The notes beneath the pieces are model-generated. The model was given only the letters and a program-made list of their open reading frames with translations. It made no database searches and was not told the origin of the DNA. Below are positions 15,651 to 47,273 of a stretch of DNA of 64,000 bases, one piece after another. Each line of letters opens with the position of its first letter. The first letter of the stretch is position 1. The stretch is from Bryoerythrophyllum caledonicum (Eukaryota; Streptophyta; Bryopsida; Pottiales; Pottiaceae), in assembly GCA_963971425.1 (NCBI GenBank), contig OZ020516.1:14992593-15056592 (forward strand). The letters are read 5' to 3'. Position numbers and translations under genes: made by a program.

Positions 15651-15654
15651 AGAC

Positions 15655-16960: not shown

Positions 16961-19900
16961 CCGCATGGAATAATGCATCAATTGCCATAAATCTTGTGGA
17001 CTAGTCAAAGACAAGGCCCGGCATGAACTATGTATTTTACTATCAATTGTCCTAATTCATACATCAGATTGTCTCCCGGCTTGAATCAGCCTCTGGACAA
17101 CAAGACAAAGTGTATCATGCATCAATCGCCATAAATCTTGTGGACCAATCAAAGATATGGCCCTTGGCCTAAATTATGACCCTTAATATCAATCAACCCG
17201 AATCATACATCACATTGTCGGTTGACATGAATCACGCTCCTAACAGTTAGACAACCTCTATCATACATTAATCTCCACAAATCTCGTGGACTAGTCAAAG
17301 ACATGGCCTGCAACCTAAAGTATGTCCCTTAAAATCAATCATCTTGATTCATACATTAGATTTTCTACTAGCGTGAATCATTCCTGGGGCAATTAGAGAG
17401 CCTTTATCATGCATTAATTGGCATAATTTATAAATCTAGTAACCTAGTCAAAGACATGGCTTTTCAACTAAATCATGTACATTAATATCAATCATCATAA
17501 ACCATACACCATATTGTCATTCGGCATGAATCATGCTTCGAGCAGTTAGACATTCTATATCATGCATCAATCTCCATGGCCCTTGACCTAAAGTATGTAC
17601 CTTAATATCAATTAGCCTAAACCATACATCAAATTATCGATCGACATGAATTACATTATAATCCATTGTCGATTGGCATGAATCATATTGTAAGCCATTA
17701 GACAACTTGCATCATGCATCAATCGCCATAAATCACATGGATTAGTCAATGACATGATCCTTAACCTAAAGTATGTACCTTAATATCTATTGTCCTCGAC
17801 CATATTTCAGATTGTCTACCAGCATATATCACACTCATAGCAATTAGACAACCTCTAGTATGCAATATTTGCTATATATGTCATGGATTAGTCAAAGACA
17901 TGGCCTTTGACCTAAAGTATGTCCCTTAACATGAATCATCCTAAACCATATGTCAGATTGTCTACCGGCATAAATCACTTTTTGAGCAATAAGACAGCTT
18001 GTATCATGCATCAATCCCCATAAATCTCATAGACTAGTCAACGACATGGGCCTTGGGCTAAATCATGTACGTAAATATCTTTTGTCCTCGACCATGCATC
18101 AAATTGTCAATTGACATGAATCATGCTCCAAGCCATTAGACAACCACTATCATGCATCAATGGCCATAGATCTTGTGGATTAGTCAAAGACATGGCCCTT
18201 GATCTAAAGTATGTACCTTAACCCTCAAAGGCCCAAGAGTCCCTCCCAAAGACTATAAGAGTCTCCTTGGGGGACTCTTGGGCCTTTAGGGGTTAATATC
18301 CTTTGTCCTTGACCATTCATCAGATTGTCGATCGGCATGAATCATGCTTTAAGCATATAGACAACTTGTATCATGCATCAATCCCCATATATTTTGTCGA
18401 CTAGTCAAAGACATGGCTTTCAACCTAAATCATGTCCCTTAATATCAATCATCCTGAACCATACATCACATTGTCTACCGGCACATATCATGCGCTGATC
18501 AATTTGACAGCTAATAATATGCATCAATCGCCGTAAATTTTGTAGACGAGTCAAGACATGGCATTTGACATAAAATATGTCCATTAATATGAATCATTCT
18601 AAACCATTCATCACATTGTCTACCAACATGAATCACACTATGAGCAATTAGAGAGCAAGTATCATGTATGAGTGGCCATAATTCTCTTGGACTAGTCAAA
18701 GAAATGGCCTTTGACCTAAATTATATCCTTTAATATCAATCATCTTCAACCATATATCGCATTGTCTAACGCCATGAAACACACTCTAAGCATATAGACA
18801 ACTTGTACTATGCATCAACCGCCATAAATCTTGTGGTCCAGGCAAAGACATGACCTTTGACCTAATTTATGTCCCTTAATATCAATGATCTGGAGCCATA
18901 CATTAAATTATCACCAACATCAATAATGATCTAAGCAATTAGATGGCAAGTATCATGCATCAATCACCATAAATCTCGTAGAGTGGTGAAAGACATGGCC
19001 TTATATCTAAATTATGTCCTTTAATATCAATCATCCTAAACTATAACTCAGATTGTCTACGGGCATGAATCATGCTCTAATCAATTAGTCAACCTCTACC
19101 ATGCATTACTTTCCATACATCCTTTGATATTAATAGTCCTTAACCATACATCAAATACGTCTACCAACCTGAATCACGCTTTAATGAATTAGACAACCTA
19201 TATCATGTACCAATTGTTGTATGGCCCTTAATGCAAATAATGTCTCTTTATATCAATGATCCTAAACCATATATCACATTGTCTACTGGCATGAATCACG
19301 CTCTAAGCATTTAGACAGCTTGTATCATGCATCAATCGCCCTCAATCTCGTGGACTACTCAAAGACATGGCCCTTAATCTAAATTATATACATAATATCA
19401 ATCATCCTAAACCATCAGATCGTCCATGGACATGAATCGCGATTTGAGCATTTAGAAAATATATTTCATTCATTATTTGTCATAGATCACGTGGACTAGT
19501 CAAAGACATGCCTTGACCTAAATTATGTCCCGTAATATTAATCGTCCTAAACAATACATTTAATTATTTCCTGGCATGAATCATGTTGTTAGGATTTAGT
19601 CAACATGTATCATGCATCAATCGTCATAAATTTTGTGGACTAGTCAAAGACTTGGCCCTTTACCTAAATTATGTTCCTTCATATCAATGATTTGGAACCA
19701 TACATCACATTGTCTACCAACATCAATCATGCTCAAAGCAATTAGACAGTCTATGTAATACATCAATCACCATAAATCTTGTGGATTAGTTAAAAAAATG
19801 GCCCTTGACCTAAATTACGTACATTAATATCAATCATCTGAACCATACATCAGACTGTCGATTGGCAAAAATCACGCTCTCAACAATTAAACAGCCTATA

Positions 19901-21800
19901 TCATGCATCAATCATCATAGATCAAGTGGATTGGTGAAAGACGTGGCTTGTGACCTAAATTATGTAAGTTAATATCAATCATTGAGACCTATACATCATA
20001 TTGTTGATCAACATAAATCACCCTCTAAATAACTAGACAGCCTAAATCATACATCAATTGCCATATATATGTAATAAAACAATTTTAATCACGCGGATTA
20101 GTTAAAGACATGGCCCTTCATCCAAACTATGTACCTTAATATCAATCATCATGAACCATACATCAAATAATCTCCTTGCATGAATCATGCTTCAAGGAAT
20201 TAGACACCATGTATCATGCATCAATGGCCATAAATGTCGTGAACTAGTCAAAGACATGGCCCTTGAGCTAAATTATGACCCTTCACATCAATGATTGTAA
20301 ACCGTACATAGATTATCCAACAACATAAATTGCGCTCTGAGCAATTAGACAGCGTGTATCATGCTTCAATAGCCATAAACCTTGTAGACCAGTCAAAGAT
20401 ATGGCTCTTGATCCAAAGTTTGTTTCATAATATGAATCATTTTGACCACACAATAGATTGTCAATCGAAATGAATCATGCTCTAAGCAGTTGGATAGCTT
20501 GTACTACCCATCAATTGCCATAATCACGTGGACTAGTCAAAGACATGGCCTTTGACCAAAATTATGTCTCTAAATATCAATCATCATGAGTCATACATGA
20601 GATTGTCTATTGGCATGAATCATGGTCTAAGCAATTAGAGAACCTGTATCATGCATCAATTTCTGGAAATCTCGTGGACCAATCAAAGACATTGCCTTGA
20701 ACCTAAATTATGTCCCTTAAAACCAATCATCATCAATTTCTGGAAATCTCGTGGACTAATCAAAGACATGGCCTTGAACCTAAATTATGTCCATTAAAAC
20801 CAATCATCATGAAGGTTACATCATATTGTGGACCGACGTAAATCACTCTCAAGGCAATTAGAGAGCCTTTATCATGCATTCATGGCCATAAATCTAGTAA
20901 TCTAGTCATAGACATGGCCCTTTACCTAAATCATGTACATTAATATCAATTCTCGTGAACCATACATTGGATTGTCGATTGCCATGAATCTCGTTCTAAG
21001 AAGTTAGACAACATGTATCAAGCATCATTTGCAATGAAATGATTGTTGATTGGCATAAATCACCTTCTCAATAATTAGACAACCCGTATCATGCATCTAT
21101 TGCCATAAATCACATGGATTAGTTAAAGACATGGCCCTTGATCTAAATTATATACCTTGATATTAATCATCACAAACCATTCATCAAATTGTCTCTCGGC
21201 ATGAATCACGTTTGATGGAATTAGACAACCTTATCATCCTTTAATTGCCATAGATCACATGGATTAGGTAAAGACATGGTGTTTATTTTAATCATCCTAA
21301 ACCATACATCAAATTGATTCTCGGCATGAATCACACTTTGAGGAATTAGACACCATGTATCATGCATCACTCGCCATAAATCTTGTGGACCAGTCAAAGA
21401 CATGTGACCTTTGACATGAAGTATGTCCTGTAATATGAATCATTTGACCATGCATTAGATTGTCCATCAAAATAAACGAGCTCTGAGCAACTAGACAACC
21501 TGTATGGTCCATCAATTGCTATAAATCACATGGATATGTCATGGACATGGCCCTTGACCTAAATGATGTACCTTAACATCAATTGTCCTCAACCATACGT
21601 CTGGTTCTCTCCCAACATGAATCACGTGATGAATCAGACAGCCTATATTATGCATCAATGGCTGTAAATCTCATGGACTAATCAATGACATGGCCCTTGA
21701 TCTAAATTATGTCCCTTAATATCAATCATCATGAACCATACATGTGATTATCCAGTACATGAATGACGCTTTGAGCAATTGGAGAACTTGAATTTTTCAT
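16960..21800 (+). repeat. ~146-bp satellite related to the 125-bp family
   Basis: Units of about 146 bp; the landmark TGGAC falls near 17141 and 17287. They share the core of the 125-bp family (TGGACTAGTCAA, GACATGGC, ACCTTAATATCAAT, ATTGTCTACCGGCATG). The end of the unit is replaced by a longer segment containing GTATCATGCATCAATCGCCA. Units are more diverged and less regular than in the 125-bp array, with several partial or duplicated units (for example near 20640-20820). About 30 units. Confidence 0.88.
18218..18296. mobile_element. Minimal TTAA-flanked hairpin insertion
   Basis: A near-perfect palindrome of 71 bp sits between two TTAA tetramers (18218-18221 and 18293-18296), inside a 146-bp satellite unit. 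Uninterrupted neighbouring units read ACCTTAATATC, so the empty site is known and the TTAA was duplicated. Arms read CAAAGGCCCAAGAGTCC and GGACTCTTGGGCCTTTAGG. TTAA duplication with CCC-type ends is the hallmark of piggyBac-type transposition. Larger relatives with similar ends occur at 49.3, 51.3, 53.6 and 59.6 kb. Confidence 0.82.
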
Positions 21801-22640
21801 CAATGCCATTAATCTAGGAGTGTATTTCCAACAACTCGGATCACGCACTTGATATGAATGGTCATGCATCATAAATCAACCAATATTGAAAAAGCATTGA
21901 GTTCTGCACATAATTATGGATCATTATTAATTTAAATAAATCACTAATAAAGTTTGTTGTATTAGTAACAAGTGTGGATTCTGCAAAAGTAAAACCAATC
22001 AACTCAAATCACGCCCTAGCAAACAACTAACTGGAATTGGGTAGTGAACCATCCTAAACTCATAAATTTAGCAATTTTACAAAAAATCTACTTATGACAA
22101 AGAAAATATCTATTTGAATGATTTTTCTACAATGCAATGTAATATTTATTTTAAAATAATTTTAAGCTTAAAACTCTATACGTGACTAATAAGTTAATAA
22201 CTATTATAATATTCCAATATTGGTTTTGAATTGTTAACTCTTTGGAGTCGTTATTGAATGTTGGAATGTAGCGCATTCAACTTTTTTTGGTTTTGTTTAA
22301 TGATTATATATGCATCATTTATTATTCATTTCTTCTATTATCAACCCCCTTGTATGATTATATGATTTAATTTGAAGACTATAAGTTTGTGTAACAAATT
22401 TTGTTTAGAGATTAGATGACTTAAACTTTGGAAAAATATGTATCAATTGTACAATATATGAATTTAATACAAAGCTAGGCATTGCATGGACATCGCTTTG
22501 GCATTACATGGATGTCATCTTGACTCATTTTCAATACTTTAGTTTTTCGTTCTAAATTGATTATCTACAAAACTGACCAACACGTATCGAAGTCTAGTAC
22601 GTGAATTTAATTGTTAATAAAATCAGTCAAGAATATGTAG
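21800..22640. other. AT-rich region, no gene seen
   Basis: Satellite similarity fades after about 21.8 kb. The sequence is very AT-rich, without open frames, clear repeats or RNA genes that I can recognise. Confidence 0.5.
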
Positions 22641-23724: not shown

Positions 23725-23825
23725 GAATGATTTTTTTTGTATAGACATCTTTTGGCTTTGAAATCTATCTAACATAGAGATGATCTTGTGGCCAAAATTT
23801 CATAATGTATCAACAAAAACTTTGT
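23725..23825 (+). repeat. Partial copy of the mariner terminal repeat
   Basis: About 100 bp match the right inverted repeat of the element at 0.4-2.3 kb (TGGAATGA, then CTTTTGGCTTTGAAAT, then GTATCAACAAAAACT). No transposase adjoins it, so it is a fragment or solo end. It lies about 450 bp beyond the 3' coding end of the retrotransposon. Confidence 0.7.
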
Positions 23826-24282
23826 GGTGCACAAACACATCGTGCAAAGATAACATCGTGCCAACAGGTGAGAGCGCACAATTAGAGGCAAACTCGGAGC
23901 AATGGTGATTATACTATCACCGTTGCCTCCGTAAACAACGAAAACAATAGTTCACAAAAGAAACTAACAACCTCCAACAACCTAGGCTAGGGAAAAATAA
24001 ATAAATACCCAGACCATAACATTTAGTAATTGGTCTACAAGGACCCCTTTACTCGCCCCCTTCACTCGTGCTGGAGCCCCTTTCACACCGGCAAACCACA
24101 CAATTAACGTAAAGTGTATGAACGACCGAGCATGAAAACCTCTCAAGTCCAGAAAAATCAAGGTGACCTATAGAAAAGACACTAATAGACCATGTAGACA
24201 AAGGATAGGCCGGGTGCATTGAGAGCCCCATCGTTAATCGCCTCTAACACTTTTAATGGCTAGACCTTGTCTACGTAGACTC
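23826..24282 (-). other. 3' end of the retrotransposon, LTR not identified
   Basis: This is where a polypurine tract and 3' LTR would be expected on the minus strand. I could not match it to sequence beyond the 5' end (32.2-33.5 kb) by eye, so no LTR pair or target duplication can be given. The LTRs may be lost, strongly diverged or replaced. Confidence 0.35.
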
Positions 24283-24720
24283 TTAATGTGCTAAACAATT
24301 TGGACACGACCATTGACCCACTGGTACCTCTAGAAGAGGTGGGGTTAGACATTCTAGATGCCACCCCGTAGAACACAAGTCACAAATGACCATTGTGGCT
24401 GCCTATTTGGCACTACCACACAATTGACATCGCAATCCAGCCGAGATGTGAGAAATACCAGGGTTTACCGTGCCATCAATGTGTGGTAAATGGCAAGGAG
24501 CGCAATTGCGCGTGTGATCCTTCCATATCTAACCATCACGACCCTCCAACAATAATACTTCTGAGTGCTTCACCTCACGAACTCGCAAGATCACCCGTCC
24601 CGTTGTCACATCCAAAGTGGTGGGCGCTGCTTGTTGTAAATACGCATAGTCTCCAGGAGTAAACCGTCGCACTTGCGGTCGGTAGCCTCCTCCCCGTATT
24701 GTAGCATAACGCAACGTATC
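24283..24720 (-). pseudogene. Integrase C-terminal tail with PHD finger (out of frame, two stops)
   Basis: After a one-base loss near 24720, integrase similarity continues in a new frame (TTG codon at 24714) with a basic tail, GYRPQVRRFTPGDYAYL, the usual post-core segment. Further on is a full set of PHD-finger ligands: CQLC (Cys at 24429 and 24420), CDLC (24384 and 24375), His at 24360 with Cys at 24351 in GWHLEC, then CPNC (24306 and 24297) preceded by GQWS. The linker between the last pairs, LTPPLLEVPVGQW, is typical of PHD fingers, which bind the histone H3 tail. The frame ends at TAA 24283-24285. In-frame TAG codons lie at 24529 and 24403, the latter between the first two ligand pairs. 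Many Ty3 elements carry a chromodomain at this place; here a PHD finger occupies it. The Cys/His pattern is seen directly; histone binding is inferred. Confidence 0.82.
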
Positions 24721-26156
24721 CGATGTTGAGCAATGGAAAGATTCTCCAATGCCATAGGCATCACCCGTTTGAACAAATCCGCACGTTGCTCACACACTTG
24801 AGCCCACGTATCTGGATTGTCCATGTTAGCCAACACGGTGTCAGCATCTGCTTGAATGGCCTTCGGTAACACCGGTTGCCTTCCAAACAACAGAAAGTAA
24901 AGAGAAAAGGACGCCAAAGATGCTTGCTTACTAAACCGGTAGCCCATGGCTATCCACGGTAATTGCAAGTCCCAATCTTGATGATGTCCCTTCTTCAAAC
25001 TATACTTCCGAAGCCCCCTCTTGACGGTTTGCACCATGCGCTTCGCCAAGCCATCCGCTTTGGGATGATCCCTCGAAGTAGTGCGGTGATCTATCATCGC
25101 TTGCTCACACAACGTTTGAAACTCATCCAAGAATTCCCTTCCTTGGTCTGTGAGAACTTCCGCTGGAGCTCCAAAGCGGCTCAATACACGATCAAGAAAA
25201 GAGTAAGCGGCCCCCTCACTAAACTTGTCAGGCAACGCCACCAATTCTATCCATTTTGAGAAGTGCTCGATCATCACCAACACATACTTATTGTGTCGAG
25301 GTGTCATTGGCAATGGACTAGCAAAATCTAAGCTCCACCTATATCCCAAGCCCATAATTGGCAATGGTTGCAATTGTGGCATCGGAGCGTTAAAAGACGC
25401 TCGTACCCGATCACAAATCATACACCGAGCTACCAAGGCTTGAACTTGAGTTTGCATTCCTCGCCACCAATAGTGAAGCTGAAGCAAGCTATAAGTCCTC
25501 CGCACTCCAAAGTGCCCAAGGTCTTCATGCGTGTCCTTGATGAGCTTCACTCTCTCCAATGGAGTTGGAACAACCTTCCGCGTGCCATCCGGCCACACCC
25601 TCAAAAGATGAGTCCTCTCCCACACGAACCGTTTGGCTCGTTGTGAGACCCGATCTCTCTCCTTGGCAGACCACGTAGGCACCATTTCTCCATTCTTCAG
25701 AAAATGCATCACGTTCGTGTCTTCAAAGATGTCTTTGGCGCCCCCAGATTCTTCACCGACATCCTCATCTACCGTGGCCACAGTAGAAGCTCCGGTGTCA
25801 TCTCCACGCATCGCCAATACACTTAGAAAGGCCGAACAATGCCAACCTGGCAACGGATCGGCTTCATCCTCCTTGTGCCACCTAGCGCCTGTAGTTTCCG
25901 TTTGGTTTGGAATTGGATTGCGGCTAAGGCCGTCGGCATCCATATTCACCAATCCCGCTCTGTGCACCACCTTGAAGTCGTATTCCATCAACATCAAGGC
26001 CCACCGCGCTAGCTTGCATGTTAGTTTGTCAGACTCCATCAACCACTTTAAAGGTTGATGATCCGTGACTAACAAGAACTCGTTACCATAAAGGTAACAT
26101 CGAAAATGAGCAATTGCCCATATGGCAGCCAAACACTCCCCTTCATACGAGCTATA
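24606..26156 (-). pseudogene. RNase H C-terminal part and integrase
   Basis: Continues the polyprotein after the TAA at 26157. The start completes RNase H (YEGECLA just upstream, then TDHQPLKW at residues ~23-30 of this open segment). Integrase follows: an HHCC zinc module (THEDLGHFG to CMIC, residues ~202-240), then the catalytic core with Asp in WSLDFASP (~269) and LTDQGREF (~329). Thirty-five residues after the second Asp the expected Glu is Lys (GLAKRM, codon near 25041-25043), a G-to-A change that should abolish strand transfer. The last ~35 codons before 24606 are out of frame: the true continuation lies in another frame from about 24720. In this family integrase inserts the cDNA into chromatin. 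The dense reading frame suggests a fairly recent insertion despite the damage. Confidence 0.92.
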
Positions 26157-27407
26157 TTAGGCCTCTGCATTATTGTTGGACTGGCTGGCGTACGCAATGA
26201 CAAACTCCTTCCCGTCGTCATCCATTTGCGTCAACACCGCACCAATTCCCAATGCGCTCCAATCTGTATGTAGCTGGTATGTCTTTCCGGCTATTGGCCT
26301 TCGAAGTATAGGTGCCGATGCCAAGCGGTCCTTCAACTCTTGAAAGGCCACCTCTTGCTCATCCCCCCATATCCAAGGTTGATCATTCCTTGTCAACATG
26401 GTTAATGGCTTGGCAATAGCACTGAAAGTCTTCACAAACTTTCTATAGTAATTACACAACCCCAAGAATGCACGTAGCCTACTAATATCCCTTGGTCTAG
26501 GAATAGACATCACTACTTCAATTTTACTAGCTACCACACCCAATCCACTTGGATATATCATGTGGCCTAAGTACTCGATGCGGTCAAAGTAGAATTTGCA
26601 CTTACCAGGGTGCAACTTCAAACCGTGGAGCCTCAATCTAGCAAACACTTCCATCAAGTGTAGCCTATGTTGCCTTCGATTCGTGCTAAAGACAACGATG
26701 TCGTCAATGTAGCATCTCATGAAATCCAAGCCCGAGAATACTCGGTCCATAACCCTCTGGAATTCGGCAGGCGTATTCTTTAATCCAAATGGTAAGAATT
26801 TCCATTGGAACAACCGGTCCTTCCCATCTTTGTCAATGCCACAGAACGCGGTCTTCTCCTTGTCTTCCTCTCTCAGTCCAATCTGGTGGTATCCAGAGCG
26901 CAAGTCCAACGTACAAAATACCTTGGCGTGACCAATAGCCTCAAAGTTCTCCTCCGGCGTTGGCATCGCATAACGATCTGACTTGGTGAATTTGTTAATC
27001 CTCCTATAGTCCCCGCACATCCTCTTCTCGGTCCAATTACCGTAGATATCTTTCTTGGATGGCATAACCGTCGCCGATGCATACTCGCAATCCGGTGGAG
27101 CCAACTTCACTAGCCCCGCAGCCACCAACTCCTCCGTACGAGCAAGTATCATCCTCCGTTCAACGTTGCTATACTTGTACGGCTTCCGGTATATTGGTGC
27201 TTTGTCCATCAAATTGATATGTACTTCTTGCCCCTTCAATACTCCAAGATCTTCAAGACTAAAGGCAAAACAATCTACGTACTCCCTGAGGAACTCATGT
27301 TCCTCTCTCTCAACTGCTCCATCCGCCAGGCCTACCATCGGTTTCCAAGTATCCTTGGTCACCGCCTCCTTCGGTTCCTTTGGAGCAAGATTCTCCTTCC
27401 TTGGTTG
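26157..27407 (-). pseudogene. Reverse transcriptase and RNase H N-terminal part
   Basis: Same frame as the upstream methyltransferase, separated from it by TAG at 27408-27410. The reverse transcriptase is well kept. The first catalytic Asp lies in TLDLRSGYHQIG (~152 of the Met-initiated segment from 27362), then PFGLKNTPAEFQ (~191-202) and the YIDD box with both Asp residues (~218-221), followed by the thumb region FLGLCNYYRKF. RNase H begins at LHTDWSALGIGAVL with its first acidic residue. The frame stops at TAA 26157-26159, just before the second RNase H acidic motif. This copies element RNA into DNA and removes the template RNA. Ty3/gypsy assignment rests on these motifs and on the RT-RH-integrase order. 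Confidence 0.95.
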
Positions 27408-29447
27408 CTATTGGATGCCATGCGAAGGAGACTCTTCTCCCTCCACATCTACCAAGCTTCCAAGTCCTTCCAATTGGCTTAGTTTGCCAATTGTCTCCCT
27501 TTGCTGAGCTGTGTGTTCTCCCACGAACATATTCTCCACAATCTCCTCCAAATCCTTCGTTTGGTGGGCCAATCCCCTACTTCGGCTCCCATCCTTCACT
27601 CCATGAAGATGATCCTCAGTCTTGAGTGTCGCGAAAAGATTCGCGGAGCCCCACATGTTCCATGGGTGAGGTGTCAAGGCCTTCTCGCCCCCAACCACTT
27701 TGCTTGTCACCCTGACAAAGACAAATTGTTCTCCGGCCGCCCGCAACTCATAAGACCCCATGTAACCAGTAAAACTAGAAGCCAACCGCTTCTGTTCTGC
27801 CACTAGCAACGAAACGATCCACGTCAAGCAATTTAAGTCCATCGCTTGCCCAAGTAAAAATCGCCGTTGTTGCTCCGAGATCCCGGGCGCATCGGTAGTG
27901 CCCGTGGAAAATCCCATGGCTCTCTCCCGTTCATCCGCATTAGGCTCCACCATCTCTTGAGACAAGGAATCCTACACAAAACCCGGGCCGTTATCCTTAA
28001 AGGCATACGACCGAGCAAAACTAACCAACGTGGGCAATGCCCTACGTGGTTCTCCTTTGCGGTTAACGACCGCCAAAGGTGCTTGGTCGTCATGATAAAC
28101 GCGTCGCGGTGCCTTGTGAGGATCCAAAATATCACTCACATAGACATCCGGCCGTTTAATTCGACCTACAGCGGACTCTAACAACTCTTGAGGTGCTAAA
28201 TTCGTCCACCACAATCGCGGGCGATGTGCTCACGATCCCACCGCAGCTGCATCCAACAACACGGGCATACCCAGAGTCTGGTGTATGCGGTGCATGCCCT
28301 CCAATGTCCTCGACCTCGAGCTACTCATCACTGGTACATTCTCCACAATGTAACCTGGTGGTCGCTTCTGAGAGGTTTGAAGCAAAGACAATACGCGAAT
28401 CATATCATGAAACCGCGAAGAACGAGTGTCTTTCAACCCGTTTTGATGTCCAGCCATTGACAATCCTTGACATGGCCATCCCGCGATGACAAGGTCCACA
28501 TGGCCAACACGTTGAATATCCTCTGTTGAAAGCAAAGCAATATCACCAACAAGAGTAGAAAATGAAGTCTTGATGGCACTAGTGGCCAACAAGTTTGGGA
28601 ATTGGGTCCTCAATCGCCGTGAATGTCGCTTAGCCACGTGCCTTGCTGCCTCATCAACATCTACGTAAATGTAGCGTTTGACCTTCATCCCTACTTGCAA
28701 CACTGCCGCCAAGCCACTTCCAATCCCTCCGAACAACTCCAACAACACAATACCATCGTCTGGTACCTTCCACTGAATGGTGGAAGTGTCTAGACGTGGG
28801 CCCAAGTCTCGGTCCACTCGAGAATCATCTTCCGATTGTGGGAGTATCGAATGCTGCCAAGCATCTTCAATGACATGTGCCGCATCCTTCTGAAGTTGAG
28901 TCGTGGTCCTCCACGCTGCTTCTATGCCAGGTTGATACGTCTCTGTATCTCCACCACTTGTGTCACCCACTTGGGCATCCATCTCGTGAAGTATAGGAGT
29001 ATTCATCGAGAAAGTATCACAACCCTTGTGAAACCATGATGGTCCCACATCCATACCTCCTGAGAAGGCAAACACGTCTGCAAGATTGCCAGTCAGAACT
29101 CGAATAAAACGAGCTGGCAGCTGAGCCTTCCGCCCATCTCCTGCTTGCCATCCTGGTCTATAACTTGCGGTTTCCTCCCAGAAATCTAAGGTAAACCCCA
29201 TGGGATAAAGCACCGCCGAGCCCACCAAGACATCGTATGACTTGGCCTCCGTTACTATAGCTTTCACCTTCATAAAGCTTGCATCCTCGACATCATCTTC
29301 GTTGAGTCGTAAAATCAACTCCTCCTTTGTGATGCCTGTAGCATGCTCCGTACCCCCCATCGAAGTGCTAATTGTCCATGGACACTTCTCCAAAGTGTCC
29401 CCAGTCAAACCCAACCCCTCACGGGCAGATGCTCCCAACATCAATGG
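27408..29447 (-). pseudogene. Retropepsin remainder and C5 cytosine-DNA methyltransferase domain
   Basis: The open part from 29444 first carries the rest of the protease fold (PLMLGAS after the active site; YDVLVGSAVLYPMGF near residues 80-94). A C5 methyltransferase follows: motif I LELFGGIGSGLA (~235-246, nt ~28742), an acidic cofactor motif YVDVDEAA (~260-267), motif IV GWPCQGLS with the catalytic Cys (~322-329, nt ~28470), and motif VI IVENVPV (~366-372). TGA at 28230-28232 interrupts it. The same frame goes on with motif VIII-like HRPRLWWTN, a TAG at 27972-27974, then motif IX-X-like ERERAMGFSTGTTDAPG and RRFLLGQAMD. All parts of the fold are present. Such enzymes transfer a methyl group from S-adenosylmethionine to cytosine C5. 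Motif VIII resembles DNMT3/DRM enzymes, while PCQ is more like DNMT1/CMT, so the subfamily is uncertain. It lies between protease and RT, as part of the polyprotein rather than a chance insertion. Confidence 0.9.
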
Positions 29448-31505
29448 TTAAGCTCCTGAATCCAAAAGCACTCGTCGAGGCACAAATACCCTCCCCTTGG
29501 GCCCAACAAGTTGGAAAATCCCTTGGGAGTTGTCAACCACCACCACACTAGGTGTAATGGATGACCTCTCGATTGCAGGTCTGGCGGCCATGGTCTTGAC
29601 ACGCATGGCTGCTGAAAGTAGCCCCTCCACGTTGTCCTCTTGACTCTTATCCACCTTTCCTTCAATCACTTCTGTCTTCAACGCATTGACGCCCGTGGAG
29701 TCACCCGACTCACATATGTGAGCCGCCATCTTGAAGACCGTTGCTACAGTCAAGCCCTCTTGTGACATCAATTTAGCAGAAAATAGTGAAGCCTCACAAA
29801 CCACGTTTGCCGCTTCTCTCACCACCGTACTAGATGGCTCTACAATCCCAACGCTAGGGCGAGTAGTTGGCACCCCCCGACGCGTTGGAGGCACCATGGA
29901 AGATGTTGGCACCATCTCCTCCAACGTGAAAGACTCGGGCAATCGAGCTTGCCGGTTGTCCTTCCCATGTTGAGGATCCAAGGTTGAACTTGCTCCACAT
30001 GGAACCTCCTTGGTCACCGGTGTTTGACTCTGCGTAAAAGCATAAGCCTCCCGTGAGCCATCCGTGATAGCAAGTGCCATGCCACTTAGCATATAGTCCC
30101 CGAATTCGTCATCATCGGGCCTAAACCCGCCCCTAGCATAAAAACTAGGAGTGACTTGGGGCTTTTCACTCACTGAAGCAGCATTCGTGCTCATGGCCGC
30201 CATCTTGGCCTCCAATTCCGCAAATTTGGCCTTCCAACCTTTCTTGTCTCCACCCGAAGACTTGGACTCCTTCTCCTTATTGCCTGCCTTGGCTCCCTTG
30301 CCTCCAGGAGGCTTCAACTCGGGGTGAAGCTTCCAATACTTAGCCTCGGAATGCCCCTTGGCACCACAACCAGAGCAATAGCCACCGGTTTGAGGGGTAG
30401 AGGACTTGCCTTCCTTGCAATCCTTCCTCAAATGCCCCGGTTTGCCACAACTAAAGCATAATGCTTCAGTGTCGGTGGCATAGGAGGGAACCGAAGCCTT
30501 GGCCACCTTGACCTTTTCAGGAATCTTCTCTTCACGTTTGAGAAATCCCATGGCCGCTTTCTCCTCCAATAAATTGATCTCAATTCTCTCCGAAGTCTCA
30601 AACACAAATCTCAAAGTCGGTGGCTCACCCAATCGCAATGCCTCATTGCGAACTAATGTCTTCAGCTCCTTCTCTAAGATGTTGTACCAGTGCTGCACTG
30701 CTTGCTGCTCCGTGACTCCGTGAGTAGCAGAAATCAGTCTCCGCAATCTCGCATGAGCTTCCCGCAAGGACTCATCTCCTCCTCGCACAAAAGACCTCAA
30801 TGCCTTCATCTTATCCGCCCGTTGACCTTGATAGTCTCGACGGATCTGTGTGAAGAATACAGCCGTAGGGTTAAACGGAGGTGGAATAGCCACCGTTTCC
30901 ATCGGTTGGCTCAAGTCCTCGGCACTACTCGTGCCCTCCTCTTGCTTCCCCTTTCCCACACGTGATGGAACACTCGGCGCTCCGCCGAATACATCCGCGT
31001 AATTTGGTGCATAGAAATCCCTCCATGCCAATATCTCCGTGAGGTGAGCCGCCTCGAATTCTCCATAATCCGCGAACGGAGCTCCCTCTAGACATCCAAA
31101 TAACGCCCTCCACACCATGTAAGGGTTGAAGTTGGGGTTGTGAGACTTCTGGAGTTCACACCACATGGTGAACTCCCTCTTGAAGTCATCCGCTTCGATA
31201 GTGCCCGTGGCACCCGAAAACCGTCGCACCCCCCATTCTCCTCCTCCTCCATATGGTGAAGCCATCTCCTCCCAATCAAAAATTGATTGCAAAGGCTTTC
31301 TTGGTGGGGAACTTGCACTACGTGCCAAAGATTCTACCACAAACTCACGTTCTTCTACTATCGGTTGGACCGTATCCTCCTCTTCCTTCGATTGAGTGGT
31401 AACTTCCTCTACCACTGTTTCTCGAACGCCTACCGCAAATGGAGTGTTTCTCCGAGTGAAACCGGGCCCCTTCCACGTCTCCAGATTGAGAATTGGTTGG
31501 CTCAA
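29448..31505 (-). pseudogene. Gag polyprotein with zinc knuckles, ending at the protease active site
   Basis: An open frame of 685 codons. Residues ~100-310 look like a Ty3 gag capsid region (FKREFTMWCELQK; EQQAVQHWYNILEKELK). A CCHC zinc knuckle follows at ~350-363 (CFSCGKPGHLRKDC). A second at ~377-390 has C, C and H, but Tyr where the last Cys belongs (CSGCGAKGHSEAKYW), a G-to-A type change. A Lys/Gly-rich linker and a long Ser/Thr-rich region lead to LLDSGA, the retropepsin active site, where TAA (29448-29450) cuts the frame; the protease goes on beyond it. The open frame begins at a TTG that overlaps the stop of ORF1, so the true gag start is unclear. Gag packages the RNA; the zinc knuckles bind it. 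Confidence 0.9.
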
Positions 31506-32143
31506 TCAAAGAAGCGCCATGCTTCATGAGTGCCCTTTTTCTCCGGAGCGTAGATAGTGGGTGGTTCTTCCCAATCGAGTAGCTCCAAGGTGAGTGTGTC
31601 CCACACACTGCTGGCCCGCTTTCGCCACGTACCCACTTCCCACTGCCACGTCGTATGAAACACGAAGCCTTCACTCTCAAATTCGGTGAAGATGAGGAAG
31701 AACGTGGGCAATTGGTTCCCTCGGCGGAAATCCGCCACCTCCACGGCGTACCTTGACCCAACGTTCTTAAGGACGACGGCCTCCTCTCCAACCACAAGAT
31801 CCACGGCTTCAACTTGGCCTCGTGCACGACAAAGAGGTGCTCGAACACCTTCCTTGGCCCTAAGCGCTCGGACCTTGCGCACCCCACCAAGTGAAGTCCA
31901 ATACTTCACGGACTCTTCGCTTAGCACCTTTGTGCCTGGCTTTCGCAAGTCTTGAGTCCCGGTTCGAGACTTGGCTATGGAAGATAACTCAAAATCCCTA
32001 CCACTAGAGCTTGCCTGGGAAGGTGAAGATTTAACTTGCAAATCTTGGAGGCAAGTAATCAATTGACTAAGGGTCTCGGTGCTAATCTCTACCGTGGATG
32101 CACTAGACTCTTTTGATTCCTTCTTCTTTCCTCCACTATCCAT
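31502..32143 (-). CDS. ORF1 upstream of gag, unknown function
   Basis: An intact frame from the ATG at 32143 (an in-frame TTG lies 15 bases upstream) to TGA at 31502-31504, about 213 residues. The N-terminal third is Ser/Lys-rich with a possible amphipathic helix (TLSQLITCLQDLQV). The rest is a compact mix with many Trp and Phe (TTWQWEVGTW; LELLDWEEPP) that suggests a folded domain, but I recognise none. Its TGA overlaps the TTG that opens the gag frame in a different phase, so it could be the N-terminal part of gag joined by frameshifting, a separate leader protein, or a frame broken from gag by an indel. It is the only retrotransposon frame here without an internal stop. Confidence 0.6.
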   Translation of the reverse strand: MDSGGKKKESKESSASTVEISTETLSQLITCLQDLQVKSSPSQASSSGRDFELSSIAKSRTGTQDLRKPGTKVLSEESVKYWTSLGGVRKVRALRAKEGVRAPLCRARGQVEAVDLVVGEEAVVLKNVGSRYAVEVADFRRGNQLPTFFLIFTEFESEGFVFHTTWQWEVGTWRKRASSVWDTLTLELLDWEEPPTIYAPEKKGTHEAWRFFD

Positions 32144-32215
32144 GTCCCATAGGCTCAATGCAACCCACTCTTTTTACGTGGTTGTATTAAGTGGGCTCAC
32201 AATGGATGTTAGGGG

Positions 32216-32660: not shown

Positions 32661-33475
32661 GATGCAACATACAAACTTGTCACTCCCCCAAGCAACCGAC
32701 TACCCCCTCCCAACGCGGGTCCGGATACGTTACCTTGTTGAAATAGTCTTGGGCCGCTGAATAGCTATCACTAGCTGCTCTTAAAGAAAACCCTAAGTCA
32801 AATCAAAGCCTTATAATGCCACATAAAAGTAGCTGGCTTTTCTCTAAAACCACAAAGTTCTAGGATAACACCCTAAAATTCTAAGTGATCAAAATCACTA
32901 GAAATGGGCAGCTCTTGCACTAAAATGTACACAAAGCTAACATGTGCTTAAGCATGTATCATTCCCACATGGAGACAAATGAACAACCTTGACACAATTG
33001 CAATGTGCAATTCCAACAAAATTTTGGCAACGCTTCCGCATCACCAAAAGCACCGCAAAAATTCAGACGACACTATAAGTGAATTCAATTGAGATTTAGG
33101 AAACCCCCAATTGTCAACCACTCACCCGGTTGCAATGAGTACCTCCACGCTTCACTAGACTTCCAAGTTTGGCGCTGGTAATCTTTGTATCACTCCGGCG
33201 CTTTACGTTGCTCTGTAGGTACCGAACTTCAATGGGAAAATGAACGAGACGTGGCATGCACGCGCACAGTAGCAGCACACCACTACTTCCTGCAAGAAAC
33301 TAAAACTCTGTCGCTAGCGCCGCCGCAGTTCCTGCAACCGCTCTCGAACGCGCGGACCTTCACCTCGTCCTCCAGGAAGTTGTTGCATCCGTCCTCCACC
33401 CAACGCCCAAGCTTCGTCACCTATAGTAACTCCACCAGCAGCGAGCCACCAGATCGTCGTTCGACTCCGGCTTAG
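32661..33475. other. Retrotransposon 5' flank or leader, no gene fixed
   Basis: Probably 5' LTR/leader of the retrotransposon up to about 33.1 kb, then GC-richer DNA. I found no primer-binding site or LTR boundary. The minus strand at 33250-33420 has fragmentary coding look (VKVRAFESGCRNCGG) with stops, which may belong to the decayed region further up. Confidence 0.35.
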
Positions 33476-33548
33476 TTTGGCAACTCTTCACAATGTGTCC
33501 CCACTCTACCAAAGAAGAGGACTCCTGTACACCAAGTATTCTCTGCAG

Positions 33549-33740
33549 CTAAAGACTGTTTGAGCTGAGTACTGTATGGGCCAAGTCGTCCTTCCACACC
33601 TGGAAGCGGTGCGTGCACTCCTCTAAAGTCTGGTACACCTTCCCCTGCTTCTTTGCCCATGCCGAGAACTGGTCTAAGGGCACCGCTTGGTCTCTACCAA
33701 TCCTCGTGGGTGTGCCGACAGTGCTTCCTGGTGTGTACAC
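33549..33740 (-). pseudogene. Fragment resembling a papain-type protease propeptide (I29)
   Basis: A 63-codon frame contains FSAWAKKQGKVYQTLEE followed by CTHRFQVWKDDL. This matches the spacing of the I29 inhibitor (ERFNIN-type) propeptide of plant cysteine proteases: aromatic-x2-W, HGKxY-like, then RF-x-W/F-x-N/D. No catalytic domain follows in frame, and neighbouring frames hold stops. It lies on the same strand as the decayed coding DNA at 36.2-37.0 kb, which would adjoin it if the CACTA insertion were absent. The assignment rests on one motif, so it is moderate. Confidence 0.4.
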
Positions 33741-34824
33741 AGACGTGGACGGACCAAGCTACTCCGGTTTAGCCTTGCACTTGTGACGTCATAGTTTCGG
33801 CGGCTCTTGCTGGACCCGCACTCACACTATAAGAAACTCGTGTTTTTTGTCACGTCCTGAATCATGTCCCAGGAGACATGTAGACATCCGAATTTACATC
33901 CCTCTGGCGTACCAACGCGTGTAACACGCTATAACGCGTAGGGACATCACCAAAAACGCGAGGACATCCCTGCGACAAGGACGATTTTTGGAGATTTTGG
34001 GAGGTTGGAAATGGTGCCAACTGGGCGCCACGTAGACGACACCTAAGCGGCAGGATGACGGGCAGTCCCACATGGCCGGGAAATTCATCCTCTCCATTGG
34101 TGACGTGGCATCTGACGTGGCATGTGACGTGGACCCACGTGGCCTCTGATGTGGACCCGGGAAAGAGTGACGTGGCGTGCCACGTCAGCAGAGATTTGCG
34201 TGGTTTTTTTTTCAGATTCGTGTTCGCGGGGACGTCATTGGTAACATGGCTGTGTTTTTTAAGACGTCCCGGGTTGACGTGGAGATGTCCTGCTCGACGT
34301 CTACGCCAACGCTACCTGGATTTTGATGCTGATTTCGTTGAACATCGCCATGCCCTAGAGGACGTGGCGATGGATATGATCGCGTCCTCCAATATGTTGC
34401 CGACCCATGGTCGTCGGCACTGAGGGTGTCATTGCAGATGTCTCAAAGAACTTATGCGTGTCTGACGTGACATCCCCTGATGCATGGTATTGTTGACGCT
34501 GTGTATGATGGTGTTTTGAGGGACATCAAGAGATGTTGTACAAGACATGAATACGTTGTACAAGACATGAGTATGTTGTACAAGACATGAGTACAAGACA
34601 TGAATACCTCATCTTACATGTAACATGTACATTCATCCAAATTCATGCTTACTGGCCTACTTGCAAATGTGGTAATATGATATACACGCAATTTAAAATA
34701 TGTCTCCATAGACACGGGGATGTTTCAAAAGACGTCCCTACGTTTCCTAAGTGTTGCGGCATACGTCTTCTACAACATGGTCACGTCTATATGTCGCTCA
34801 CATCACATTGGATGTCCAACACTG

Positions 34825-35002
34825 CACCTCTAACCTCTACACTCTAAACTCTAACCTCTACACTCAAAACTCTAACCTCTACATTCTAAACTCTTACCTC
34901 TACACTCAAAACTCTAACCTCTACACTCTAAACTCTAACATTCTAACTTGTAAACTCAGTCTACACTCTAAAACTCCAACCTCTACATTCTAAACTCTAA
35001 CT
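34825..35002. repeat. 21-bp tandem repeat within the CACTA element
   Basis: Units of CTCTACACTCTAAACTCTAA and close variants repeat about eight times. They resemble degenerate telomere-like pyrimidine repeats but lack the exact plant telomere heptamer, so they are simple repeats. Confidence 0.85.
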
Positions 35003-35060
35003 ACTTGGAGAAATGAAGGCCAAAGTGAGCTTTGTGCAACCTCAAATTCTACTTAAAGGT

Positions 35061-35142
35061 CTCATGACCTAACTATGGCTGTAGCAGCTAACCCTAGCCG
35101 CCTCATGACCTAACTATGGCTGGAGCAGCTAACCCTCGCCGC
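35061..35142. repeat. 41-bp tandem duplication within the CACTA element
   Basis: CTCATGACCTAACTATGGCT followed by (G)AGCAGCTAACCCT-GCCGC occurs twice in direct succession, with two mismatches. Confidence 0.9.
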
Positions 35143-36203
35143 CTCTATTCATCCAATGAACTTGACAAAATTCATCCTACTTGATGGTTATGTTTTGCAA
35201 GACACGATGATGTTTTCCAGGACATGTCGATGTTTTCCAGGACATGTCAATGTTTTGCCAAACACTGCTGATGTTTTCAGAGACGTCTCTGTGGGATGTC
35301 CTCAAAGACATGTAGACGTTACTCGAGACATCTTCAATTGGATGTCTCAAGTGACGTGGACCTATACACAGAATGACGCGTCACCTTGTCCGACATGGAA
35401 TTGTGTTTGCCATGTAGATGAAGTGCTGTAAACTACAAAATATATAATATGTCTACATGGGTAAGCCACCAAGGACTTTACAAAATCACCCTAAATTCCT
35501 TATAATTCGGGTTTTGGTAGAAAAGTGGTATTTTAATATTATATTAATTAATAAATATTATTTAATATTTAAATACACAGTACTGAATTTAATATGTCCG
35601 CTTTAATTACAGAATAATCATTTTTTATAAAATATTATTATAATATTAATTAATATTTTGTATTTTTAATATTTAAAATTAAATTTTATTTTGAAAACCA
35701 TTTTGATACGAAGTAGACAAATCAAAAATTTCAGAGGATCAAAGTTAATAAATATAATCAGAATATTCTTCAATTTTATATACTTTATTTTTTTTATTTT
35801 TAAAAAAAAAATCTAGTTTTATAATGCTCGTGCCTTTTTTTTCCTCCTCTTGCAGACCGCTGCCCGTTTCGTTGTTTTTTTTAACGTTGGGCTACTTTCT
35901 ATCTTGCACAACAGTAACTTCGACATTCTTACCTCAAGTGAAACGTTTGTCCGCTGCCAGCGTGGCAGTTTTGCGTCACCCAAGATGTCCTCGATGACGT
36001 CCTCGGAGACGGGCGCGTTGTTGGAGACATCATCGCGTCTCCTATTTCGCACGCACGTTTCGGGACCCTCCCACCTCCACTGTTCATTATTGACGCGTGG
36101 ACATCCTCACGTTCACGGGGACATTACTGGCTAGCTCCAAGACATCAAAAAAACACGCTGACATGATTAAAGACATAACAAAAAACACGGGTTTCTTACA
36201 GTG

Positions 36204-37000
36204 TCACTACCCCTCCACGTCCCGTGTTGGCACGAAGCCGAAAGTCCTTGATGCGTTGCACTGCCGTATTAGGGTCGTACTCCGTTTTCTTCCCTCTCAG
36301 TTTCTGAATCTCCAAGTACCTCTTTGCCCTTGTCCTGTCACGCTTCAAGAGCAATGCGGCCTCGCCAGTCTTGGGCTTGGCACTCTTGACGGGCGCCTGC
36401 TGCTACTCTTTCTCCACGTCGAGAACCTCAGACTAGAAGAGCTCCGCCACAGCGCAGACGTGCGCCCTGCTGCCACCGCCGACCACCATCCAACTCCAGA
36501 ATCTGCTCATGGATCGCCGTCTGCTTCTTCTCGTTACCGCACGCCTCTCACGCTAGGACCACCTTCTTGTGCAGCATGACGTCATCCGGCGCGAGCTCCC
36601 CCGCGCGCGCTTGTTCTCCGGCGTGCACCACACGACTCCTCGAACTGTTGCACGATAGAACACCGGGTTCAAGTCGTCCAGCTCCGGCAGCGTTTACTTG
36701 GTTGACCCTGCCTAGCACTCGTAGAGTTCTAGCACGCGCCGCCAATTCTCTCGCCCGACGCTGCCCAACACCACCGCGAGATCCTCGTTTTCCAGTTGCT
36801 CGGGCCAGCTCTCCAACACGTCCGCCACAGGACGGTCGAGATCCAGCTCACAAATGGCGATGGCGAGACGCTGAACTCGCTCCTTCTAAGGATTTCTTGC
36901 GCACTCCATGCACACTCTCCGTGCTTCCCCTGATCACAGAAAACTCTAGTGCGAATGTAGGAGTTTTGAACAACGCCCACAAAACCCTAGTAGATGTATA
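36204..37000 (-). pseudogene. Decayed coding region, PPR-like start, several stops
   Basis: GC-richer minus-strand DNA with long stretches of protein-like sequence in one frame, broken by TAG and TAA codons. From about 36900: RLAIAICELDLDRPVADVL, then ENEDLAVVLGSVGRENWRRV and LELYE. This resembles the N-terminal part of some plant pentatricopeptide-repeat proteins. Further on come LPELDDLNPVFYRATVRGVV with CTPENKRAR, and (36210-36420) AALLLKRDRTRAKRYLEIQK with DPNTAVQRIKDFRLRANTG. At least two TAGs (near 36430 and 36395) sit where Gln codons would fit. It ends against the CACTA insertion. It may be a dead host gene or a gene fragment carried by another element. Confidence 0.4.
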
Positions 37001-37411
37001 ATAATGTTGCGGCCACACCCATTTCCACAACATGATCTTTCTCAAGTAATAAAATAAGTGATAAACACTCACAAATCACAATAAGTCGAGTCCATGCCAC
37101 TCTTCAAGAGTGAAAACATGATATGGATAAGGCTAACGATGTGCAACACGTACACACCCTCACCTCATCACGTGGGAAACTCAACTTGAGAAAGATGAGT
37201 CTCCCTCAACCACACGTGGAGGTCACCCGGGTTCCAAGTCCCGAGATGAGGTGTCGAAAGACACCACCGTTGCCCTAGCCGCCACGCGGCACTAAACCTA
37301 ACTCTAATCTCCCATTAGCGCTAAGTCTTGGGCTCTCCGGTAACTCCACAACTCTCTAGATGGTTTCTACCCGAATACCATCTATACAAACACCTCCATG
37401 CGCCGATCCTG

Positions 37412-38316
37412 ACAACTCAATTCTAGGAAGGGTGTTGAAGTTGGAAGTAGTGGTAAGCTTTCCCCTTTGTTTCTCACAACAACACATGTTGGTCACCACA
37501 ACACATGTTGGTCACAACAACACATGTTGGTCACAACAACACATGTTTCTCACAACAACACATGTTGGTAGACTTGGTATATGTTTTTTTGTGTAGATCT
37601 TTTGGATTTGAAATTTTCCACACTTGTATTTGACATAAAGACGACTTCATACCCAAAATTTCATGGACAAATAATTTTTTTTGAATTCTTGGGAGGGTGT
37701 CAAAGTGGGCAGATGTGAAACTTTCCTCACAGCTAACCCCCATGTTAGTAGATTTTGAATATCTTCTTTTGAATACATTTTCTGGCCTTGAAAATTTTCC
37801 CACATGCTATCAACATAAAGGTAACCGTGTGGCAAAAAATTTCATGTTGAAATAACAAACTCTCAGCCCTAGGGAGGGTGTCAAAGTTGGAAGTAGTAAA
37901 ATGGTTTTTCCTTGTTTCTCATAACTACACATATTGGTAGATTTGGGATGCGATTTTCTTGGTGCACTTTTTGGACTTGAAAATTACCACACATGTAATA
38001 AAAATAAAGGTGTTTTCACTCCAAAAATTGCATGGGCAAAAAAAAATTCCTCAATCCTTGGGAGGGTGTCAAGTTGGCAGTTGTGAAACTTTTCTCACAG
38101 CTACCCCATGGTGGTTAATCTTTGATATCTTTTGTTTTAAATGTCCCTTGGACTTGAAATTTGGTATGCATGTTTTCAACATAAAGATGATGTTGCCCCC
38201 AGAACTTCAGGGTAAAATAATAAATTTTCAGCCCTGTGGAGGGTGTCAAAGTTGGCAGTAGTGTGGGGCATCATCCTTGGAATTGCCCGAATGCCAATTT
38301 GAATGTCACCCTACTA
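37412..38316 (+). repeat. Second ~185-bp array, kin to the mariner terminal repeat
   Basis: Five units end in GAGGGTGTCAAAGTTGG-like words near 37428, 37691, 37873, 38062 and 38238. Each contains TGTTGGTAGA, TTTGGACTTGAAATTT and CAAAAATTTCATGG-like blocks, as at 2.1-2.66 kb. Both arrays stop after CCAATTTGAATGTCACCCTA. No transposase is associated. Confidence 0.78.
37474..37569. repeat. ~20-bp tandem repeat
   Basis: CACAACAACACATGTTGGT is repeated five times, enlarging the first unit of the surrounding array. Confidence 0.9.
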
Positions 38317-38622
38317 TACATAATTAACTCAAAATGGAGGGTGTCCAAAAAATTTGAAAATATAAAATGTTTGTCTAAGGTGATACCCATGTAAAGCCAA
38401 AGTCTTACCCTTGTAATATCTAGGAAATACTCATGTAATACCTATGTGATACCCGTTGTGTCCAAACCACTGTATTAAGAAAAAAGTTGGTTCGTACAAG
38501 GGGTGTCCAAACCAGACCAATACATATGGTATATGATTATTAGGTGTCACCCTACCAAACCTAAGGTTAAGCTACAATATTCAACAACTACCAAGTCAAA
38601 AAATGAGATGATTGATTATGTA
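38317..38622. other. No gene seen
   Basis: Low-complexity AT-rich DNA with several GTAATACC/GTGATACC words near 38380-38455. No open frame or inverted ends recognised. Confidence 0.4.
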
Positions 38623-38977
38623 AAGTTAGCCCCCCCATAACCAACAAAAATCCATAATCAATGCCTATTAAATTGGGATATATCCAACCCTCTTCCATCC
38701 CATTACTGTACCACCAACTCAGCTCCAAATGGAGGTTTGCTATTAGTCAAGACCCTTACTTTTGGCCGTTGATTATGGGGGGTACCTACTATTGGCCACT
38801 AAACATAGCTGCATACTTTGAAAACTCATAACTACTTCAGTTTTCATCGAAAAAATATGAAATCACTTGGTTGGAATTGTATTTCTATTGGCTATCACTG
38901 AAAAGTAATAGTATAATTATCTCCTCTCTCCATATATGCACATTCCTTAACTTGTCGGTTTTAGGGGGCCTTACCTT
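38623..38977 (+). mobile_element. ~354-bp MITE, copy 1 (upstream of ABC1K8)
   Basis: Reads AAGTTAGCCCCCCCATAACC at the left and TTTTAGGGGGCCTTACCTT at the right, so its ends are inverted repeats. A second full copy in opposite orientation lies at 46862-47215. No coding capacity. It ends about 60 bp before the GC-rich promoter region of the kinase gene. Confidence 0.85.
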
Positions 38978-46600: not shown

Positions 46601-46861
46601 CTTACAGCTCAAAGTTGGATAACGGACGACTTTATTTGGCTAACGAACTTCTCCACTATTATCTAGTAGTGTAGATAAATGAAAATCACTACGGTACTTT
46701 TTTTCTTTTTTCTTTTTTCTTTTTTCCTTTGGTTAAGAGGGAACCAAGAACCAAATCAACGCGCCAGAGCATTTCTACGGTACTTTCACATTTCTTTTTT
46801 AACACTATAATAAGAAATCACATGAGTAAACCCTGTGACTGTAACAAAACTGCAGAGATTA
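46601..46861. other. No gene seen
   Basis: AT-rich with a TTTTTCTTTTTTC pyrimidine tract at about 46699-46728. Confidence 0.4.
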
Positions 46862-47215
46862 AGGTTAGCCCCCCTAAAATCGACAAGTTAAGGAATGAGC
46901 ATATATGAAGAGAGGAGATAATTATACTATTATTTTTCAGTAATAGCCAATAGAATTACAAATCCAACCCAAGTGATTTCATATTTTTCCAATGAAAATT
47001 GAATTAGTTATGTAACTTCAAACTACGCAACCATATTTAGTGGGTGGCTAGCAGTAGGTACCCCCCATAGCCAACAACCAAAAGTAAGGATCTTGACTAA
47101 TAGTTAACCTCCATTTGGAGCTGAGTTGGTGGTAATGGGATGAAAGAGGGTTGGATACACCCCAATTTAATAGGCGTTGGCTATGGGTTTTTGTTGGTTC
47201 TGGAGGAGCTTACCT
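46862..47215 (-). mobile_element. ~354-bp MITE, copy 2 (downstream of ABC1K8, inverted)
   Basis: Reverse-complement copy of the element at 38623-38977, about 85-90% identical by eye. Ends AGGTTAGCCCCCCTAAAA and the inverted form of AGGTAAGC lie between TA dinucleotides (46860-46861 and 47216-47217). This fits a Stowaway-like, Tc1/mariner-mobilised MITE. The two copies bracket the kinase gene. Confidence 0.85.
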
Positions 47216-47273
47216 TACTCCTAAAAAAGACGAAGGTGTTAGAACTGCAGATGTCATGTCATACAGAGTGTAA

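Follow-up and report, generated by a model that had tools for sequence, protein, structure and literature searches.

Among the retroelements known to carry a cytosine methyltransferase, the nearest in layout to the element considered here is KnitGypsy-Dnmt3 of the charophyte alga Klebsormidium nitens, which joins Gypsy genes to a DNMT3 domain and to DIRS-like repeats (de Mendoza et al., 2018, PMC5890265). A second described example, SymbioDIRS-Dnmt3, likewise holds a DNMT3 domain between split repeats, and its enzyme performs de novo CG methylation in yeast; it has, however, a tyrosine recombinase and not a DDE integrase, and the paper that describes it calls it unrelated to the Gypsy case (PMC5890265). 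Why a mobile element should bring along an enzyme that serves to silence it is a question left open in the discussion of that paper (PMC5890265). Here we describe a retroelement in a 64-kb stretch of the moss Bryoerythrophyllum caledonicum (contig OZ020516.1, positions 14,992,593 to 15,056,592; the whole stretch is hereafter the window), which lies within a genome of 437 Mb with chromosome-scale contigs. One copy lies on the minus strand, at window positions 37414 to 23822 approximately, and a DNMT3-class enzyme is a regular, selected part of the high-copy, recently active family to which it belongs. The kind of element is already known from K. nitens (PMC5890265), and a preliminary description of this locus was right in placing it in a known line of charophyte elements. 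What is new, as far as our literature search shows, is a conserved UAG-CAR-YYA sequence behind the enzyme, a PHD finger, a high copy number in a moss, the existence of relatives in liverworts, zygnematophytes and chlorophytes, and a second position for the enzyme; the same search, which covered subscription titles in part, found no bryophyte or chlorophyte DNMT-Gypsy elements and no UAG readthrough in them.

Judged from its motifs and its homologues, the domain at 27750–28790 is a C5 cytosine methyltransferase that stands nearest to DNMT3. The motifs listed in the preliminary description (FGGIGSG, GWPCQG, ENV, HRPRLWW and RRFLLGQAMD) are all present in the minus-strand translation, running from motif I near position 28748 through PCQ, ENV and HRPRLWW to motif X at approximately 27857–27837, and the 5' piece of the domain matches the Pfam family DNA_methylase (PF00145) at 1.7e-13, which bears out a C5 methyltransferase inside a Gypsy-type polyprotein; the 3' piece, scanned alone, returned no Pfam family. 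The span of 27408–29447 originally allotted to the enzyme does contain it but is too wide, the rest being protease and linker on one side and, on the other, a weakly conserved tail (27750–27411). DNMT3 (DNMT3A/B) ranks first both by sequence and by fold (homologue P0003; profile of 20), with DRM and M.HhaI behind. The idea that the enzyme mixes DNMT1 and DNMT3 features is not borne out: no DNMT1 or CMT rows appeared at E ≤ 1 in the sequence searches, and PCQ in place of PCN characterizes the clade as a whole, 51 of the 59 alignment rows having Q. Motifs I, IV (Cys), VI (Glu), VIII, IX and X follow one another in linear order, without the rearrangement of the DRM type, and an AlphaFold2 model of P0003 folds motifs I to X as one domain, with a pLDDT mostly above 90 across residues 200–530. 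None of the scanned sequences returned a Pfam family for the PWWP and ADD domains of animal DNMT3A/B, and algal and protist DNMT3 are described as likewise free of companion domains (PMC12344493). That RNA is what the domain methylates, or that it does no more than bind nucleic acid as a packaging factor or chaperone after losing its action on DNA, might be argued from the DNMT2-type C5 enzymes, which act on tRNA, and from the inactivity of the K. nitens enzyme on yeast DNA (PMC5890265); we consider this improbable, as the domain is closest to the DNA-acting DNMT3 (E-values of 1.4e-12 and 2.5e-13) and far from DNMT2 (0.08 and 0.01), and as the motifs are retained in most alignment rows.

The domain is shared by the sister copies of the element. 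A PF00145 profile search of the genome contigs gave 123 scored places of 1054 candidates, and 20 of these were pulled with 10 kb each (L009–L028), a choice biased to long open frames, while a reverse transcriptase (RT) search scored the best 100 copies of 5153 candidates. All 20 long copies match gag, protease and both halves of the methyltransferase in the same order; RT is matched in all 20 as well, albeit over only 25 residues in L018 and partially in L028, and integrase in 18, those without it being L021 and L028. Read from the other side, a DNMT match is listed just upstream in 84 of the best 100 RT copies, and the remaining 16, read over 601 bp each, all hold DNMT sequence (46 residues only in L102). 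The PF00145 search and a further one combined mark 158 distinct places in the genome matching a DNMT, although not all were read and some of the PF00145-only ones may fall outside this family. A one-off, accidental pickup of a host gene, or a false profile hit, is refuted by these counts, since the domain is present, whole or in part, in every one of the best 100 RT copies and 58 of 59 related proteins (below) have a retroelement domain; we give it practically no credence. The preliminary description had asked whether related copies lack the domain, which these 100 do not, and had proposed looking for intact sisters, which exist as copies with open frames. The family falls into three subfamilies: A, which includes the window copy and accounts for eight of the 20 long copies; B, also eight, in which identity to the window copy is 78% in the first half of the methyltransferase and approximately 91% in RT (lower in L016); and C, with four, at 48–53% in the methyltransferase and 52–61% in RT.

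Constraint on the enzyme was estimated by the method of Nei and Gojobori from one A and one B copy, as the ratio of nonsynonymous to synonymous divergence (dN/dS); dS for this pair is 0.75–1.45, which is near saturation, and the A–C and B–C comparisons are saturated and yield no ratio. On this measure the methyltransferase (0.08) is constrained about as strictly as gag (0.10), with RT at 0.04, RNase H–integrase at 0.05, protease at 0.22 and the 38-codon tail at 0.26. The two copies that could be read to both ends have split repeats in the order a-internal-b-a-b with termini TGTC...GACA (in L010 a GC separates the first b from the a behind it), and they are flanked by 4-bp target duplications (AGGA and CCTC). 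Their a repeats match without a difference over 367 and 357 bp, their b repeats are 99.6 and 99.2% identical, and such near-identity points to recent insertions. In two further copies, L018 and L019, the 3' end has the order b-a-b; no a follows b in L009, L017, L022, L023 or the window copy, within the stretch available. The gene order is that of Ty3/gypsy, with gag and protease followed by RT, RNase H and a DDE integrase, yet the plain form of that group, with one full long terminal repeat at each end, is ruled out by the a-internal-b-a-b arrangement, and the element is therefore filed by its gene set and not as a plain long-terminal-repeat element. DIRS elements have a tyrosine recombinase and are not known to produce a target duplication. 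Membership in that group would fit the split repeats, but it was rejected on account of the DDE integrase core and the 4-bp duplications.

How the enzyme might be produced is suggested by the border between the methyltransferase and RT. Open sister copies have a gag-protease-DNMT open reading frame (ORF) of approximately 1360 codons, a single in-frame TAG and then an ORF of 1041 codons for RT, RNase H, integrase and PHD finger. The junction was surveyed in 81 copies (the 20 long ones, 60 short junction reads and the window copy), of which 76 could be aligned at this codon (all except L019, L036, L053, L072 and L078), and 74 of these have TAG. The six nucleotides that follow conform to CAR-YYA in 72 of the 74, and in subfamily C they read CAA TCA in 4/4 copies despite different flanking peptides; most of the A and B copies read also have a CAA codon ahead of the stop. 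UAG_CAR_YYA is the consensus of type I readthrough in tobamoviruses (PMC3542737), and in plants readthrough has been put at 32% for the site of tobacco mosaic virus (TMV) and 11% for that of beet necrotic yellow vein virus (PMC2754532). Taken at the level of sequence, then, the TAG at window 27408–27410, followed by CAACCA, looks like a family feature and not damage, and it is strongly indicated that gag, protease and DNMT3 make up ORF1 and that a programmed leaky UAG closes it, RT, RNase H, integrase and PHD finger being made by readthrough only. The likeness to TMV-type readthrough takes in the stop codon, the six nucleotides behind it and, for the majority of A and B copies, the CAA ahead of it, but whereas the described cases are plant RNA viruses, the predicted split here separates Gag-protease-DNMT from RT-integrase in a retroelement (PMC3542737, PMC2754532).

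A rival account would have the border TAG as mere decay, or would have pol expressed by reinitiation or from a spliced RNA, and it can draw on the further stops of the window copy, on the sense codon in two copies and on Marchantia gene models that join DNMT to RT (P0252, P0255 and P0259), perhaps across modelled introns. We think it quite unlikely. TAG is kept in 74 of 76 junctions, many of them between otherwise open ORFs, its hexanucleotide is kept in 72 of 74, and the codon persists in subfamily C with other flanks. Behind it, the first Met comes at codon 24 in one A copy, at codon 82 in one B copy and at codon 117 in one C copy, and this scatter makes a shared new start improbable. Moreover, the subfamily C peptide just ahead of the TAG, ALSAT and one more residue, forms the C-terminus of 6/19 gag-protease-DNMT relatives in a comparison of protein records. 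A conserved, leaky-type TAG between DNMT and RT, to return to the readthrough layout, would send the enzyme with Gag and protease, and it offers a testable clue that the enzyme is dosed like Gag and not like RT.

Set against KnitGypsy-Dnmt3, the moss family agrees in its Gypsy gene set, in an unrearranged DNMT3-type domain within the polyprotein, in repeats of DIRS order and in purifying selection (PMC5890265). It differs in that the enzyme, which in the alga is part of the Pol ORF, lies here on the Gag side of a leaky-type UAG, and in that a family occupying more than 100 places in a moss, with relatives across green plants, replaces an element of one alga; the two were compared by description only (PMC5890265). 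The terms 'readthrough' and 'PHD' do not occur in the main text of that paper (PMC5890265). The PHD finger closes the integrase ORF of L010 (1.5e-9) and L013 (2.3e-9). In placing a domain of chromatin-reader type at the C-terminus of integrase the family resembles the chromoviruses, from which it departs by having a PHD finger in place of a chromodomain (none in two copies scanned) and by its DNMT3 (e.g., PMC2864245, PMC3605345).

The interpretation that we favor, with somewhat better than even confidence in the whole of it, is that a selected DNMT3 enzyme is produced at the level of Gag through a leaky UAG, is packaged and methylates the complementary DNA (cDNA) of the element, and that integration is guided by the PHD finger. 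Cut free or kept on Gag, the enzyme would enter the particle in larger amounts than RT, and there it would methylate the new double-stranded cDNA before or at integration, probably at CG if the retroelement enzymes assayed in yeast are a guide. The new copy would then enter the genome as DNA already methylated, and the PHD finger on the integrase may help to choose the chromatin in which it lands. We infer packaging, pre-integration methylation and PHD targeting by analogy with described systems. Several observations nevertheless weigh against it. KnitGypsy-Dnmt3, the nearest published layout, was inactive in yeast, a result its authors call inconclusive (PMC5890265); two of the 76 junctions (L022 and L083) have the sense codon CAG; two of the 74 contexts deviate (CAACCT in L012, CAAGCA in L045); and an excess of C-to-T changes in family copies indicates that the enzyme does not spare its carriers. 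In the window copy, with changes polarised by L010 and L013, private changes of the C-to-T type number 20 at CHG (54 per 1000 sites), 12 at CG (25 per 1000) and 39 at CHH (19 per 1000), against 5 per 1000 for A/T transitions; CHG exceeds CHH (20/368 versus 39/2075, Fisher p 2.7e-4), and CG does not (p 0.37). The CHG rate is highest in all seven A copies counted, L021 having been excluded because a large insertion misaligned it, whereas in the B copies CHG leads in 1/7, CG in 4/7 and CHH in 2/7 (one of the latter, L014, having two changes in total). This excess is what host methylation of integrated copies, followed by deamination, would leave; no context bias is uniform across the copies, and the excess is uninformative as to who methylates the cDNA.

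The same enzyme might instead act mainly on the host genome in trans, flooding it with marks or copying them so as to blur silencing, or limiting the element's own copy number. A high copy number, with 158 places matching a DNMT, and a PHD finger in the integrase ORF, a domain that is often a chromatin reader, would suit such a role, and both host-wide effects and self-limitation are discussed by de Mendoza et al. (PMC5890265); we nonetheless hold it to be unlikely, given that a product linked to Gag is expected in particles and that in K. nitens, host to an element laid out in this way, the methylome is of the ordinary plant-like kind (PMC5890265). Whether retroelement cDNA is methylated ahead of integration could be asked directly in this family, owing to its high copy number, its near-identical repeats and a host group, the mosses, with tractable members.

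Relatives of the enzyme extend well beyond mosses. With the DNMT portion of ORF1 as query, 59 proteins were recovered, of which 58 have at least one retroelement domain, the other being a hagfish DNMT3A. The hosts include Marchantia, Sphagnum fallax, Closterium, Mesostigma (under the label Mesvir1) and the chlorophytes Haematococcus and Monoraphidium, to which a further search adds Sphagnum troendelagicum and Calypogeia fissa; there is no K. nitens row among the relatives listed. Two layouts occur among them, with the methyltransferase either between protease and RT or between RNase H and integrase, and the second is found in P0265, P0279 and 14 more, the chlorophyte Haematococcus included. 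Trees were built after dropping rows with a DNMT match below 231 or an RT match below 191 residues (59 and 27 rows kept); the DNMT tree was rooted on one distant DNMT3A and the RT tree at its midpoint, and several nodes have support below 0.7. In the DNMT tree a single clade (support 0.92) unites the 16 RNase H–DNMT–integrase elements and two whose order is not known, and in the RT tree 13/14 of them group together (0.89), the exception being P0277. A PHD finger also stands behind the integrase of P0263 and P0279, and its presence there as in L010 and L013 marks it as an old companion. In these two relatives, however, DNMT and RT share one ORF without a stop, which leaves the leaky-stop layout known here only for the bryophyte branch. 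One may go further and propose an old green-plant Gypsy lineage, reaching from chlorophytes to mosses, that makes DNMT3 at a structural ratio (in bryophytes by means of the leaky stop behind it), pre-marks its cDNA and integrates with a PHD integrase, the enzyme having moved between its two positions or been captured again. Such an element would combine writer and reader in itself, and its new copies would resemble silenced or native DNA from the outset; this wider proposal is tentative, and we would put its chances at clearly less than even. The spread over green plants does suggest an old and persistent strategy, and not an oddity of one alga.

The window copy itself is a dead and decayed member of the family. 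From 5' to 3' it comprises an a repeat, a long leader, an ORF of 223 amino acids, gag, protease, DNMT, RT, RNase H, an H2C2 domain, a DDE integrase, a PHD region and a b repeat. The a repeat (37052–37414) starts with TGTC and is 97.5% identical to that of L010. The leader (33133–36976) has no match in the leader of the copy compared with it (no alignment of L032/L010), probably because it was inserted later or has diverged. The 223-residue ORF (31502–32173) also occurs in A and B copies and matches no Pfam family; for the A–B pair its dN is 0.217 and its dS saturated. In A and B copies this ORF, of approximately 220 residues, lies in a frame other than that of gag or is separated from gag by a stop. 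Gag, with a CCHC zinc knuckle (Pfam 4e-5), runs by translation into the start of the protease (DSGA) at 29451–31505, and the remaining aspartic protease with its linker (28930–29447) is matched in 20/20 long copies. Behind the methyltransferase and its TAG lie RT and the start of RNase H (26157–27407; RVT_1, PF00078, 1.3e-31, and PF17919), then the remaining RNase H, the H2C2 zinc-binding domain and the DDE integrase core (24606–26156; PF17917, PF17921 at 4.5e-16, and rve, PF00665, at 4.1e-14). The PHD region (24295–24429; PF00628, 1.5e-9 in L010) is out of frame here and has an internal stop. The b repeat (23822–24050; 97.8% identity to that of L010) ends in CACCACA, where L010 has CACGACA; no second a-b pair follows it, and the flanking 4-mers are GAGT and AAGT. 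Stops interrupt the frame at 29448 (protease), at 28230 and 27972 (both within the methyltransferase), at 27408 and at 26157 (RNase H), and a frameshift lies upstream of a further stop at 24606. The preliminary description had placed the enzyme in one frame with gag, protease, RT and integrase; the shared frame holds, although it is not open in this copy, and the leaky-type TAG stands before RT.

Scans of the window against Rfam and of homologue P0003 against IMG/VR gave zero matches. Elsewhere in the window, tandem satellite arrays at 2706–15651 and 16970–21815 have mutually related units of approximately 125 and 146 bp, and CpG observed/expected is 0.35 over positions 1–24000, the satellite region. 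Overlapping ORFs for a Tc1/mariner-type transposase lie on the minus strand at 493–1523 (DDE_3, 8.2e-14; HTH_Tnp_Tc3_2, 1.5e-15). Repeats no longer than 0.9 kb are dispersed over 49302–50200, 53619–54548 and 59634–60635 at approximately 74–82% identity, and an inverted repeat pair of 85% identity joins 38620–38977 with 46861–47218. Outside the window, a complete C5 methyltransferase of 364 amino acids and bacterial look is encoded in one open frame (L001:1441-2535, from G000:C14:16014858-16018817); it adjoins a transposase-like ORF on a 22-Mb contig and may reflect contamination, a scaffolding error or a transfer. Among the plastid contigs, C894 has an accD gene next to rbcL that is 96% identical to a cluster of 236 proteins represented by the moss Timmiella anomala (Pottiales), the next match, apparently Sphagnum, being at 86%; this agrees with a moss host, as judged from plastid and not nuclear genes. 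The assembly also holds two different plastid rbcL sequences (contigs C821, C590 and C894, of which C821 differs), which suggests a second plant in the sample.
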